Below are positions 53,439 to 60,119 of a stretch of DNA of 64,000 nt, in pieces. Both the position numbers and the translations under genes were made by a program. The DNA comes from Persicobacter psychrovividus (GTDB lineage Bacteria > Bacteroidota > Bacteroidia > Cytophagales > Cyclobacteriaceae), in the NCBI RefSeq assembly GCF_036492425.1, contig NZ_AP025292.1, positions 186,001 to 250,000 on the forward strand, read 5' to 3'. Below the pieces are notes generated by a model, which saw only the letters and a list, made by a program, of their open reading frames with translations, was not told where the DNA came from and made no database searches. The first letter of the stretch is position 1. Every line of letters begins with the position of its first letter.

Positions 53439-54272
53439 CTATTTTACGAATATCCTAACAAGTTCAAAAAATGCCACTAAAAATGGGATCGACAGCAACA
53501 GGCCGTCAAAACGATCCAGAAAACCGCCGTGTCCTGGCAAAGTTGATGCTGAATCTTTAATGGCAATACTTCTTTTGAAGAGCGATTCGACAAGGTCCCC
53601 GTAACTGCCCGCCACAATGATGATAACTGATAGTCCTAACCACTCGTAAAGCGGAAGGGTTGTCCAGAAATGGGATAATACCACTGATACGAGGATTGAA
53701 AGGGCGGCGCCTCCGAAGAATCCTTCCCATGTTTTTTTAGGTGAAATCCGTTCAAAAAGCTTATGTTTTCCGAATTTTACCCCAGTAAAATAGGCTCCTG
53801 AATCACTTGCCCATAATAAAAGCAACATCCCCATAATGATTTGTGGGTTGTATGCTCCGCCAGAAAACGTACAAACATGCAAAAGCGAAAATGGCAGCGC
53901 AACATAAACAATGCCCATAAAGGTTTGCGCAATACTGTTAAACGGCCTGTTTTCGGGTGTCTGGTATAGTTTGGTGAAATAGATCAAGCCTACAAGTGGC
54001 ATCAGTAACAGGTAGCTTCCTAACGGCCACTGCTGCTCAAAATGCATATAGGTGATCAGGTTTATTCCCCCACCAAGCAGCAGCCCGATCCATTGTATTG
54101 GCCGTAGTTTATCTGCTTTTATAAGTTTGTAAAATTCCAATTGCGCTAAAATGGCAATGATGAAAAAAAGCGCAAAATAGCTGTATGTGCCGTAAAATAT
54201 TGCACCAATAAACACCGCAATGCCGATCAGGCCTGTGATGACTCTTTGTGTTAAATTACTAAGTTTAGTCAA
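53439..54272 (-). CDS. cdsA: Phosphatidate cytidylyltransferase
   Basis: 277 residues from a TTG at 54272 that overlaps the end of the DUF2007 gene (stop TAA at 54265-54267), implying translational coupling. About eight membrane helices and the CDS signature SDSGAYFTGVKFGKHKLFER followed by SPKKTWEGFFGG, then SYGDLVESLFKR and the C-terminal motif KDSASTLPGHGGFLDRFDG. It makes CDP-diacylglycerol from CTP and phosphatidate. Confidence 0.94.
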   Translation of the reverse strand: MTKLSNLTQRVITGLIGIAVFIGAIFYGTYSYFALFFIIAILAQLEFYKLIKADKLRPIQWIGLLLGGGINLITYMHFEQQWPLGSYLLLMPLVGLIYFTKLYQTPENRPFNSIAQTFMGIVYVALPFSLLHVCTFSGGAYNPQIIMGMLLLLWASDSGAYFTGVKFGKHKLFERISPKKTWEGFFGGAALSILVSVVLSHFWTTLPLYEWLGLSVIIIVAGSYGDLVESLFKRSIAIKDSASTLPGHGGFLDRFDGLLLSIPFLVAFFELVRIFVK

Positions 54273-54474
54273 ACCGAATATCGTTTGTGATAATTTGTTG
54301 TGCACGGAGCAGGTCATCGCGCTCCACCAAAATTTGGTAACTGCCAAATATACCGTAGGCCAAATCTTTTTTGTCCATCAGGAAAGCAGGAATGCCGCGT
54401 TCTTCCAAAATATCACGCACAATAGTGGCTCTTTGAAGATTTTTGGTTTCGTATGCTTTTTCAGAATGCTCCAT
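54265..54474 (-). CDS. DUF2007 family protein
   Basis: 69 residues, EHSEKAYETKNLQRATIVRD, then ILEERGIPAFLMDKKD and LVERDDLLRAQQII: the compact alpha/beta DUF2007 fold. Sometimes called a putative signal-transducing protein; role unknown. Its stop overlaps the cdsA start. The upstream region has a promoter TACCTTTG (54506-54513 on the minus strand) with a GACTGT...ACAGTC inverted repeat between it and the ATG. Confidence 0.8.
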   Translation of the reverse strand: MEHSEKAYETKNLQRATIVRDILEERGIPAFLMDKKDLAYGIFGSYQILVERDDLLRAQQIITNDIRFD

Positions 54475-54513
54475 GACTGTCTTTTTTATTGTAAAAAAAT
54501 ACAGTCAAAGGTA
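54475..54513 (-). promoter_or_regulatory. Promoter and inverted repeat before DUF2007
   Basis: TACCTTTG (54506-54513, minus strand), immediately followed by GACTGT (54501-54506) and, after an A/T-rich 20-bp spacer, ACAGTC (54475-54480) which touches the ATG. The inverted repeat covers the transcription start. Confidence 0.45.
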
Positions 54514-54559
54514 AATATTTCTGTGGTTTAAACCGTTGGATTAATTCTAAAATCACATC

Positions 54560-55039
54560 TTATTTTATTGATTGGTCGAAGATCAGTATTCCTTCGCCAG
54601 ATTGAGGTAGACCCCGTAGTTGTTTTTTCCAGGTAGAAAGGCGCTTGTGCCGACTGATCTCCTTACTGATCCGTGTATTGAGGAAAGGCATCGTATCATA
54701 ATCGTTCTGTTGCCAGCAAGTCTGAACGGTATCATTCAGCGCCTGCAAATGCTTCTGACTCATAATAACGAGCAGGTCCATCAGGTGGTGGAAATTCTTA
54801 ATGTCTTCAGGCTGCGGATTTACATTGGGCGTATGGGAATGGTGGCCACACTCCTGCAAGTATTCTACCAGGTCGTTATGGTTTGCCCAATGGTCATTGG
54901 CCAGCTGCTGGCAGAATAATTTGGTATTCGGGTAGCCATTTTTTTCACACCAGTTTTGATAAGCCATACAGATGGATCGTGCATTGGCTTCGTCAGAAAT
55001 ACGTTGGTGCAGTGCGTTTACAGTCGTTTCGGTAAGCAT
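54560..55039 (-). CDS. Ferritin family protein with degenerate ferroxidase centre
   Basis: 159 residues. It aligns without gaps to E. coli FtnA as remembered: TVNALHQRISDEANARSICM, WCEKNGYPNTKLFCQQLAND, DLVEYLQECG, QNDYDTMPFL and the C-terminal GEGILIFDQSIK. Of the six canonical ligands, E17 is kept but E50 is H50, H53 is N53, E94 is S94, Q127 is E127 and E130 is R130; E49 and E126 are D49 and K126. It therefore probably folds as a four-helix bundle and may form a cage, but is not expected to oxidise iron in the normal way. Alternative: a divergent member with new metal or ligand binding. Confidence 0.75.
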   Translation of the reverse strand: MLTETTVNALHQRISDEANARSICMAYQNWCEKNGYPNTKLFCQQLANDHWANHNDLVEYLQECGHHSHTPNVNPQPEDIKNFHHLMDLLVIMSQKHLQALNDTVQTCWQQNDYDTMPFLNTRISKEISRHKRLSTWKKQLRGLPQSGEGILIFDQSIK

Positions 55040-55372
55040 TATTATTTGGTTAGGTTTTAATACTAAAGGGTTGTAACAAACAATCTAACGGATTGGATCA
55101 TTAAAAACCAAAAAAAATCGGTGGGAATCCTAACAAAAACAGAACGGAACAGGCATTTTAACTGATATTTACACTCAGAGGGCTTTTTTTGTGGCCATCT
55201 ATGCTTTAACTTTGTAAGTCAAAACCCTTTAAACGCGTAAAATGTTGATAGTCTATGCTTTGGGCGCGTTTTTTGATGATTGACAATCAGGGAGTTGGAT
55301 TGAAAAACAACTTGAGCAAAGATTTTATAAAGATAAAACATATGCGACGATGCAAATGAGCACGTGGCCTAA
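55040..55372. other. 333-bp intergenic region
   Basis: Contains a candidate -7 box TAACTTTG (55207-55214) for dusB and, after it, a weak AAACGCG...CGCGTTT hairpin (55231-55271) with T residues behind it, possibly an attenuator. No ORF recognised. Confidence 0.35.
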
Positions 55373-56377
55373 ATGAATAACGCTATGGTAAAAATTGGTG
55401 AGGTAGAATTAGGCGAATATCCATTATTGCTGGCGCCTATGGAAGATGTCAGTGATCCTCCATTCCGCGCAGTATGTAAAGAAAATGGCGCTGATATGAT
55501 GTACACGGAGTTCATCTCTGCAGAAGGACTGATTCGTGATGCCGCTAAGAGTCGCCAAAAACTGGATATTTATGATGAGGAACGCCCGATTGGTATTCAG
55601 ATTTTTGGAGATAAGATTGAATCAATGCGTGAGGCTGCAGCGATTGCTGAAGAGGCCAACCCTGAGCTGATCGACATCAATTACGGTTGCCCAGTGAAGA
55701 AGGTGGCAGGCAAAGGCGCGGGTGCGGGTATTTTGAAGGATATCCCGAAAATGCAGCGCATGACGGAGGAAATCGTGAAGCAGGTGCAAAAGCCCGTGAC
55801 TGTAAAAACCCGCCTCGGCTGGGATTCTACCACTATTCAGATTATTGAAGTAGCGAAACGTTTGCAGGATGTGGGGATCTCTGCCCTGACCATCCACGGC
55901 CGTACCCGCCAGCAGATGTACAAAGGAGTGGCCGACTGGAACCCTATTGCAGAGGTGAAAAACCACCCCGATATTCATATTCCAATTTTCGGGAATGGTG
56001 ATATCGATTCTCCAGAAAAAGCACTGGAATACAAAAATACCTATGGCCTTGATGGCGCCATGATTGGCCGCGCAGCGATTGGCTACCCTTGGATTTTCAA
56101 TGAGATTAAGCATTTCATGAAAACAGGAGAAAAACTTGCTCCCCCAACAATGGAAGAGCGTGTGAGAACTGCCAAACGCCATTTAGAGCTTTCCCTGGAA
56201 TGGAAGGGCGAACGTCAGGGGATTTTGGAAATGCGCCGCCATTACACGAACTATTTCCGTGGTGTGGCCAATTTCAAGCCTTACCGAATGAAGTTGGTGG
56301 AAAGCCTTGATCCTAACGAATTATTTGAAGTACTCGAAGAGGTGCAGGCTTCTTTAAGTTTGCCTGAACCCGTATAA
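55373..56377 (+). CDS. dusB: tRNA-dihydrouridine synthase DusB
   Basis: 334 residues. FMN-dependent TIM barrel with LAPMEDVSDPPFRAVC, TEFISAEGL, IDINYGCPVKKVAGKGAGAG (catalytic Cys near 106), KTRLGWD, LTIHGRTRQQMYKG and GRAAIGYPWIF, plus the C-terminal RNA-binding helices. DusB-type by the conserved IQIFGDK and GRTRxQxYKG. It reduces uridines of tRNA. An internal ATG 12 bp later (MVKIGEVEL) could also be the start. Confidence 0.95.
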   Translation: MNNAMVKIGEVELGEYPLLLAPMEDVSDPPFRAVCKENGADMMYTEFISAEGLIRDAAKSRQKLDIYDEERPIGIQIFGDKIESMREAAAIAEEANPELIDINYGCPVKKVAGKGAGAGILKDIPKMQRMTEEIVKQVQKPVTVKTRLGWDSTTIQIIEVAKRLQDVGISALTIHGRTRQQMYKGVADWNPIAEVKNHPDIHIPIFGNGDIDSPEKALEYKNTYGLDGAMIGRAAIGYPWIFNEIKHFMKTGEKLAPPTMEERVRTAKRHLELSLEWKGERQGILEMRRHYTNYFRGVANFKPYRMKLVESLDPNELFEVLEEVQASLSLPEPV

Positions 56378-57490: not shown

Positions 57491-57916
57491 ATGAGCCCCC
57501 AATCCCCCATTACCGAAAATTCAAGTCAACAGCTTTTTGAGGCCCTTCAGCCCATTCAGGATAATATCAATTTACTGAACAGCCTCCTGCGGAAAAACCA
57601 GCGGTGTTCTTTGCCCAAAAAGTCGGAAGGCACCGTTTCTTTTGTCCGTGAGTCTTTACAGAAAGCCATCGAGCATGAGGAGATTATCCCGCAGCAGGTG
57701 GATGTTTCTGAAATAGCAGCTAAAGTGGAACTGATTGACCAGATCGAGAAGGCGCTTCAGCCACTGGAACAAATGAGAAGCCAGTTACTTCAGGCGGCTA
57801 CATTTATGGCCAGCGAAGTTTACATTCCGTGTTTGGGGATTCATAACGCCATTAAATTGCATGAAATTCAGCAGGCACGACATGAACAGGAAGCCATTGA
57901 TCTGGCGGTTGTCTGA
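57491..57916 (+). CDS. Hypothetical soluble protein
   Basis: 141 residues, ATG start, no signal or membrane helix. Largely helical and acidic (ESLQKAIEHEEIIPQQVDVS, VELIDQIEKALQPLEQMRSQ, MASEVYIPCLGIHNAIKLHE), looks like a four-helix arrangement. No family recognised. It is transcribed away from feoB and ends at a bidirectional terminator. Confidence 0.6.
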   Translation: MSPQSPITENSSQQLFEALQPIQDNINLLNSLLRKNQRCSLPKKSEGTVSFVRESLQKAIEHEEIIPQQVDVSEIAAKVELIDQIEKALQPLEQMRSQLLQAATFMASEVYIPCLGIHNAIKLHEIQQARHEQEAIDLAVV

Positions 57917-57998: not shown

Positions 57999-60119
57999 TT
58001 ATGACAATACCTGATAGACGATCAGGGAAAAAACATAAGCCATTCCCGTGAGGTAGCAAAGTTGAATCATAGGCCATTTCCAGGAGTTGGTTTCCCGCTT
58101 GACAATGGCAAGCGTACTCATACACTGCATGGCAATGGCATAATAAATCAGCAAAGATAAACCACTTGCAAGGGTGAAGACGGGTAAGCCCGTTTTAGGG
58201 TTAATTTCCGAAGCCAGCCGGTCTTTAATCGACTGCGGATTGTCGCCTGAATCGTTGGAGCCCACGCTGTAAATTGTCGAGATAGAGCCTACAAACACTT
58301 CCCTTGCAGCAAAGGAGGTGATCAGTGCAATTCCGATTTTCCAGTCATAACCCAATGGAGCGATGACCGGCTCAATTACTTTACCCAAATGCCCAGCATA
58401 GGAGTGCTCCAAACGGTAAGAAGCCACCATGTTTTCATGTTGATCCTGGTTCAGACCAGGGTGGTTTTGTGATACCAGGGCCTCCGCCTGATCCATCTCG
58501 TTGCTGGGGCCATAGCTGGCCAGTGCCCACAATACAATAGAAATTACGAAGATAATTTTACCTGCGGAGAAGATGAAAGTCTTCGATTTCTCGAAGATCG
58601 TCAGACTGACATTCTTCCATCTCGGCATACGGAAGGAAGGCAATTCCATGATCAGGAACGGTCGCTGAGGTGATTTTATCAGCTGGTTCATGATCAAAGC
58701 AACGATCAGTGCCAAAATAAACCCTCCCATATAAAGCGCCATCAATACTAAGCCCTGAAGGTTCATGAAGCCCAGTATTTCCCGGTCGGGGATAACGAGG
58801 GCTATCAGAATAGCATAAACCGGCAAGCGTGCCGAGCAACTCATCAGTGGGGAGATCAATATGGTAATTAACCTTTCTTTCCAGTTTTCAATATTTCTGG
58901 CAGCCATAATGGCTGGAATCGCACAGGCGACACCAGAAATCAGCGGTACAATACTTTTTCCATTCAGCCCAAATACCCGCATAATACGGTCGGTAAGGAA
59001 CACTACCCTGGCCATATAGCCCGTTTCCTCAAGCATGGCAATGAAGGCAAACAGGATGGCGATCTGAGGGACGAAAATCACGATCCCACCAATACCCGGA
59101 ATGATACCGTCGCTGATCAGGGAGTTTAGTGGCCCTGCCGGTATGGTGTGGTGTGCCCATTCGCCCAAAGCGCCAAACATGGCATCGATATAGTCCATCG
59201 GGATACTCGCCCAGGAGTAGATGGCCTGAAACATGAAGAACAGGATGGCGACGAAGAAGGCATAGCCAAAGATGGGGTGTACCAGGAATTTATCCAAAGT
59301 GGAGGAAAAGCTTTTGTCTTCCGTAAATTTCCGGCCGCCTTTTTCCACTTTTTTCAGAATGGCATCGAGCAACTTGTAGCGAGCAATGGTTTCCTTGGCT
59401 TGTAGCTTTGGTCCATTGAAATGGGAGTTTTGCTTAATTTCTTCCACAATTTCCCGGTCTTCGGGGCCAATACCAGTGTAGGTATCGGTTTGTTGCATCA
59501 TCTGATAAATGCGATAGGGGCGTTGATCAGGAAATGCAGCCTCCAGGCGGTGGAAGAGTTCGTCGTGAATATACTCTTCCATTGGCAGGAAGGGTTCCGG
59601 CTCGGCATATTCGTAAGTCGAGATAAAATCCGTCAGGGCATTTACCCCTTCGCCATTTCGCCCATTGATCGGGAATATGGGAGCGCCCAAAGACTTTGAA
59701 AGTTCATCGAGGTCAATATTTTCCTGCTTGTCTTTCAGTACATCGAGCATGGTCATGCCAATGACGATCGGCAGGCCAATATCTTTAATTTGGGTGAAGA
59801 GTAATAAATTACGTTTGAGGTGTGCGGCATCAATAACCACGATGGCAACGTCAGGATAGCTTTCGCTTTCGGTATTACTGACTTCAGTAAAAAACACCTG
59901 TTCATCCAAGGATCTTGGATAAATACTGTACGTGCCAGGAAAGTCGATAATTTGAACTTTGCGGGACTTGATTTTTGTGCAGAGTCCTGTTTTTTTGTCA
60001 ACAGTAACTCCTGGGAAATTCCCTACCTTTTGATTCAGCCCTGTAAGATGATTGAAAAGGGAGGTTTTTCCAGCGTTTGGGTTACCGATAAGGGCAACCT
60101 TTAGAGTGTTGTCTGGCAC
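57999..60119 (-). CDS. feoB: Ferrous iron transport protein B
   Basis: 706 residues from a GTG start directly after the feoA stop. N-terminal GTPase with G1 GNPNAGKTSLFN, G3 DFPGTYS and a G4 variant TMLD; guanine-nucleotide-dissociation-inhibitor linker; then the membrane domain with two gate repeats (GYAFFVAILFFMF, LISGVACAIPAIMAARN, SPLMSCSARLPVYAILIAL). Moves Fe2+ into the cell. Feo is one of the two pieces of iron chemistry in the window along with hemH and the ferritin-like gene. Confidence 0.96.
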   Translation of the reverse strand: MPDNTLKVALIGNPNAGKTSLFNHLTGLNQKVGNFPGVTVDKKTGLCTKIKSRKVQIIDFPGTYSIYPRSLDEQVFFTEVSNTESESYPDVAIVVIDAAHLKRNLLLFTQIKDIGLPIVIGMTMLDVLKDKQENIDLDELSKSLGAPIFPINGRNGEGVNALTDFISTYEYAEPEPFLPMEEYIHDELFHRLEAAFPDQRPYRIYQMMQQTDTYTGIGPEDREIVEEIKQNSHFNGPKLQAKETIARYKLLDAILKKVEKGGRKFTEDKSFSSTLDKFLVHPIFGYAFFVAILFFMFQAIYSWASIPMDYIDAMFGALGEWAHHTIPAGPLNSLISDGIIPGIGGIVIFVPQIAILFAFIAMLEETGYMARVVFLTDRIMRVFGLNGKSIVPLISGVACAIPAIMAARNIENWKERLITILISPLMSCSARLPVYAILIALVIPDREILGFMNLQGLVLMALYMGGFILALIVALIMNQLIKSPQRPFLIMELPSFRMPRWKNVSLTIFEKSKTFIFSAGKIIFVISIVLWALASYGPSNEMDQAEALVSQNHPGLNQDQHENMVASYRLEHSYAGHLGKVIEPVIAPLGYDWKIGIALITSFAAREVFVGSISTIYSVGSNDSGDNPQSIKDRLASEINPKTGLPVFTLASGLSLLIYYAIAMQCMSTLAIVKRETNSWKWPMIQLCYLTGMAYVFSLIVYQVLS

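Follow-up and report, generated by a model that had tools for sequence, protein, structure and literature searches.

Can a bacterial ferritin lose its ferroxidase centre and still be retained by selection as a folded protein? This question is raised by a gene of Persicobacter psychrovividus, a member of a marine genus of the Bacteroidota with a 6.15 Mb genome assembly. The gene lies in a stretch of 64,000 nucleotides, referred to here as the window. We follow it from its ligand positions and relatives to its possible role, and the features of the window that bear on the argument are the following.

54560..55039, minus strand: ferritin paralogue of 159 aa without a ferroxidase centre, recognized by its open reading frame, Pfam match, FtnA alignment, structure model and fold search
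54265..54474, minus strand: DUF2007 gene, the next gene downstream of the ferritin gene after a gap of 85 nt and a conserved neighbor of cdsA in relatives
53439..54347, minus strand: cdsA (CTP_transf_1), the conserved neighbor that marks the slot
55373..56377, plus strand: dusB-like gene for a tRNA-dihydrouridine synthase, divergently oriented, the other border of the slot
55040..55372, no strand: intergenic region between the ferritin gene and dusB, the presumed site of both promoters
57999-60119: feoB, with its own transcription and plus-strand genes between it and the ferritin gene

The term paralogue is used here for a duplicate from the same genome and for a gene from elsewhere alike; its very long branch in the tree would fix neither origin. 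The cdsA reading frame, as listed, begins at a TTG and overlaps the DUF2007 gene, and the true cdsA start is probably further in.

Family assignment and ligand positions

The protein matches the bacterial-type Pfam Ferritin family (PF00210; E 4.7e-14) with 53 bits, above the cut-off of 24.5. It falls below the equivalog cut-offs of the NCBI models for both FtnA (NF007638; 26.3 vs 178 bits) and FtnB (NF011597; 17.4 vs 154 bits). A sequence search of the PDB returned bacterial ferritins, with 1krq as the best match (7e-9). A frame error was ruled out by a reading frame that is intact in three Persicobacter genomes.

E. coli FtnA and FtnB sequences from NC_000913 served as references for the alignment. 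The protein aligns with FtnA from residue 1 to 159 without a gap, and of the di-iron ligand set E17, E50, H53, E94, Q127 and E130 it keeps only E17, the remainder being changed as E50H, H53N, E94S, Q127E and E130R. An initial annotation had stated this pattern, and it agrees exactly with the NC_000913 sequence. Further losses that were not listed at that time are Y24C and those of site C (E49D, E126K and E129S). Given the missing ligands and what is known of ferritin chemistry, it is very unlikely that this protein carries out the ferroxidase reaction by the di-iron route.

With an identity to FtnA of 19%, it is conceivable that the alignment is wrong and that the protein is an active ferritin with displaced ligands. 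Helices B, C and D were therefore each slid separately by up to 7 residues, and within that range no shift restored either the E50+H53 pair of helix B or the Q/E127+E130 pair of helix D. In helix C, the P. psychrovividus protein offers an acid for position 94 only at a shift of -6, and the orthologue of Persicobacter sp. CCB-QB2 offers one at -2 and +1, so no common register works for this position. The gapless alignment also contains the invariant anchors W30-C31, D113 and F119-L120. Misalignment is refuted at the sequence level by these register shifts, and as an explanation it is highly improbable; the corrected alignment that might have restored the ligands did not emerge, and the centre stays lost.

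Distribution and genomic setting

The centre-less ferritin is present in all three Persicobacter genomes examined, the near-identical and related contigs being those of the uncultured Persicobacter isolate 477 and of Persicobacter sp. CCB-QB2. The CCB-QB2 orthologue is syntenic and has also lost the centre, with E17, H50, F53, S94, E127 and I130 at the ligand positions. Alignment of close homologues, which the initial annotation had proposed as a check, thus indicates that the loss is fixed across the three genomes. Homologues were searched for in 196 genomes of the family, 390 of the order and 395 of the phylum (overlapping sets), and no intermediate between the Persicobacter pair and ordinary ferritins was found among them. 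The best matches outside Persicobacter are ligand-intact ferritins; in the approximately 70 Bacteroidota loci inspected all six ferroxidase ligands are in place, and two of these ferritins have single site-C changes. A wider spread of the centre-less form is ruled out in the searched genomes. None of the viral contigs searched encodes a relative, and a plasmid search gave three ordinary, distant matches (18-25% identity). A literature search found no paper naming Persicobacter together with ferritin.

The same check list had suggested looking for a second, intact ferritin, and one canonical copy was found (L001), located 1.27 Mb from the centre-less gene and with its ligands complete (E17, Y24, E50, H53, E94, Q127 and E130). 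This FtnA-like ferritin of Cytophagales type resembles the centre-less protein in Pfam family, fold and approximate length and differs from it in its complete ferroxidase ligands; the two are about 22% identical. Because an intact ferritin is encoded, the organism does not depend on the centre-less one for iron oxidation, which is available in trans. The genome also encodes two Dps-like proteins (L002 and L003, at G000:C1:471851-472270 and G000:C2:714298-714708), and the gene of the former lies directly upstream of a peroxiredoxin-like gene.

Downstream of the ferritin gene and on the same strand are DUF2007, cdsA, a Glu/Leu dehydrogenase-like gene, a psd-like gene and hemH; the dehydrogenase and psd names are our reading of the sequence. 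In this run, which includes cdsA and psd, hemH is the fifth gene after the ferritin gene. From the presence of feoAB and hemH in the same window, a regulatory or storage role without oxidation had been put forward as possible; the link to feoAB is not supported, since feoB is transcribed separately, plus-strand genes intervene, and the ferritin gene is flanked by genes of a conserved chromosomal neighborhood. Between an EamA transporter gene and feoB is a 141-aa reading frame (57491-57916, plus strand) with no Pfam match at 0.001. The cdsA-DUF2007/dusB neighborhood is conserved in many related genera, where ferritin is absent from it. In two relatives, the slot between DUF2007-cdsA and dusB (54475-55372 in the window) holds a gene for a multi-pass membrane protein, whose EExxxR motif leads us to regard it as CPBP-type. 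The Persicobacter ferritin gene appears to sit in place of this CPBP-type gene, and CPBP/Rce1-like matches occur elsewhere in these genomes. The region between the ferritin gene and dusB is clearly conserved between the two species only at its dusB end, and a promoter scan of this region yielded sites no more numerous than in shuffles.

Selection and predicted fold

Between two genomes of the species, the ferritin gene has five silent and no amino-acid differences. Between species, the protein is 42% identical to its CCB-QB2 orthologue, and the codons form one gapless block of 157, in which the proportion of differences is 0.46 at codon position 1 and 0.30 at position 2, with 15 of 19 four-fold sites different (0.79, near saturation). 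Judged by these substitution patterns, the gene is under purifying selection. The canonical ferritin is 82% and DusB 93% identical between the same species, so on this comparison the centre-less ferritin is constrained, though less than either. In the tree, its stem has a length of 9.1 and its tips about 1.8, where branches of the canonical pair measure 0.1 to 0.3; owing to this very long branch, the tree does not place the two degenerate sequences. Since the ligand loss is common to a syntenic orthologue and selection is visible, it is not a product of chance.

AlphaFold2 was run with a two-sequence alignment as input, and the best of five models reached a pLDDT of 84.7 and a pTM of 0.78 (the second had a pLDDT of 77.7, and three were poor). 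This model has five helices in ferritin order, at residues 4-34, 37-63, 83-110, 114-141 and 148-155, forming a four-helix bundle and a short fifth helix (helix E) of lower confidence (pLDDT ~64). Searches with the model using Foldseek and VIA-align 2 returned 24-mer ferritins over the full length, and the match to EcFtnA (1eum) had a Z of 22.3 and an rmsd of 1.5 A over 158 aligned residues. The earlier proposal that selection keeps a ferritin structure without the catalysis is borne out by the purifying selection, the full-length predicted fold and the loss across the three genomes of the genus taken together. The net charge (D+E vs K+R) of the two centre-less orthologues is -2 and -5, and their canonical counterparts have -15 and -16. 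This low charge suggests a cage that would attract iron less, and argues mildly against the protein being an efficient mineral store on its own.

Possible roles and known counterparts

On balance, we lean towards an FtnA-like paralogue that has lost its di-iron centre and site C, has kept the five-helix subunit and acts as a non-catalytic partner or cage in iron storage. Such a protein would still form or join a 24-mer cage. It may mix with the canonical ferritin, which would carry out the oxidation, as in the case of animal L chains and Magnetospirillum Bfr2, or it may form a cage of its own that binds metal and hands it on, as has been proposed for FtnB; the data favor neither variant, and we give the two about equal weight. 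In animals, H and L chains share far more of their sequence than the about 22% found between the centre-less and canonical ferritins. At that identity to the canonical ferritin, matching interfaces in Persicobacter are not assured. The faster evolution of the centre-less gene relative to its canonical paralogue also counts against a non-catalytic partner.

This fast evolution, with its long branch, and the known occurrence in one genus only are what would be expected of a decaying duplicate heading for loss, constrained only by leftover demands on fold and solubility. The frame is nevertheless intact, without an indel across 157 codons despite near-saturated silent sites, codon positions 1 and 2 diverge well below the four-fold sites, and within the species silent changes alone are seen; decay is accordingly a distinctly unlikely account. 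A somewhat better candidate, still improbable, is that the ferritin has been repurposed around a new single-metal or thiol-based site and binds or senses a metal other than the di-iron pair. Its putative ligands would be E17 of helix A, H50 of helix B and E127 of helix D, all in the old pocket, with H97 a single turn away from S94; to the ancestral cysteines C31 and C108, the protein has added C43 and C64. All of these residues and W51 are identical in the two orthologues, which are otherwise so divergent, and H50, W51, C43, C64 and H97 are missing from every canonical ferritin inspected. Conservation of single residues is only weakly tested by two sequences, however, and C31 and C108 are nothing unusual for the bacterial-type ferritin family. 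That the old pocket has been rebuilt specifically as a metal site from E17, H50 and E127, with H97 close by, for a non-ferroxidase function particular to Persicobacter is a shade less likely again; in that event C31/C43 and C64/C108 may pair.

The non-catalytic cage subunit that we favor has several counterparts. E. coli and Salmonella likewise have, in addition to an intact FtnA, another bacterial-type ferritin, FtnB (PRK15022), in which E17 is retained but E50, H53, E94 and E130 are replaced (by N, Q, Y and D in E. coli). In contrast to the Persicobacter protein, FtnB retains Y24, E126 and Q127. An FtnB orthologue is ruled out by the low score against the FtnB model and by this other replacement pattern, and because the replacements are unlike those of FtnB, the loss in Persicobacter looks independent. 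One proposal for FtnB is that it supplies iron for Fe-S cluster assembly (PMC10536872), a role that would correspond to the variant with a cage of its own. In Magnetospirillum gryphiswaldense, Bfr2 is described as lacking a ferroxidase centre (PMC8945002), and Magnetospirillum Bfr1 and Bfr2 form mixed 24-mers (PMC8945002, PMC6529640); bacterial mixed cages with a ferroxidase-less subunit are also represented by a hetero-Bfr class (PMC12120770). Here too a ferroxidase-less subunit is encoded in a genome that also has a competent one, although Bfr2 is a bacterioferritin with a haem site and its gene adjoins that of its partner, whereas the Persicobacter protein, for which mixed assembly would be a prediction, is FtnA-like with the canonical gene far away. 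In Pseudomonas aeruginosa, FtnA and BfrB subunits are combined although their similarity is poor (PMC8945002). The L chain of animal ferritin has the ferritin fold without a ferroxidase centre and coexists with a catalytic chain (PMC7762939), and in this the Persicobacter protein is alike, although it differs in its distance from the canonical chain and in its small net negative charge.

Ferroxidase-less subunits are already known in animals, among some bacterioferritins and as enterobacterial FtnB. Such ferritins have arisen before, and the replacement pattern indicates that the FtnA-type case of Persicobacter probably arose independently. What is new is the loss of the centre in an FtnA-type ferritin of the Bacteroidota, apparently independent of FtnB and with selection visible. 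Such a loss would support the idea that bacteria have repeatedly evolved non-catalytic cage subunits, and the canonical and centre-less ferritins of Persicobacter offer a simple pair for testing mixed assembly.
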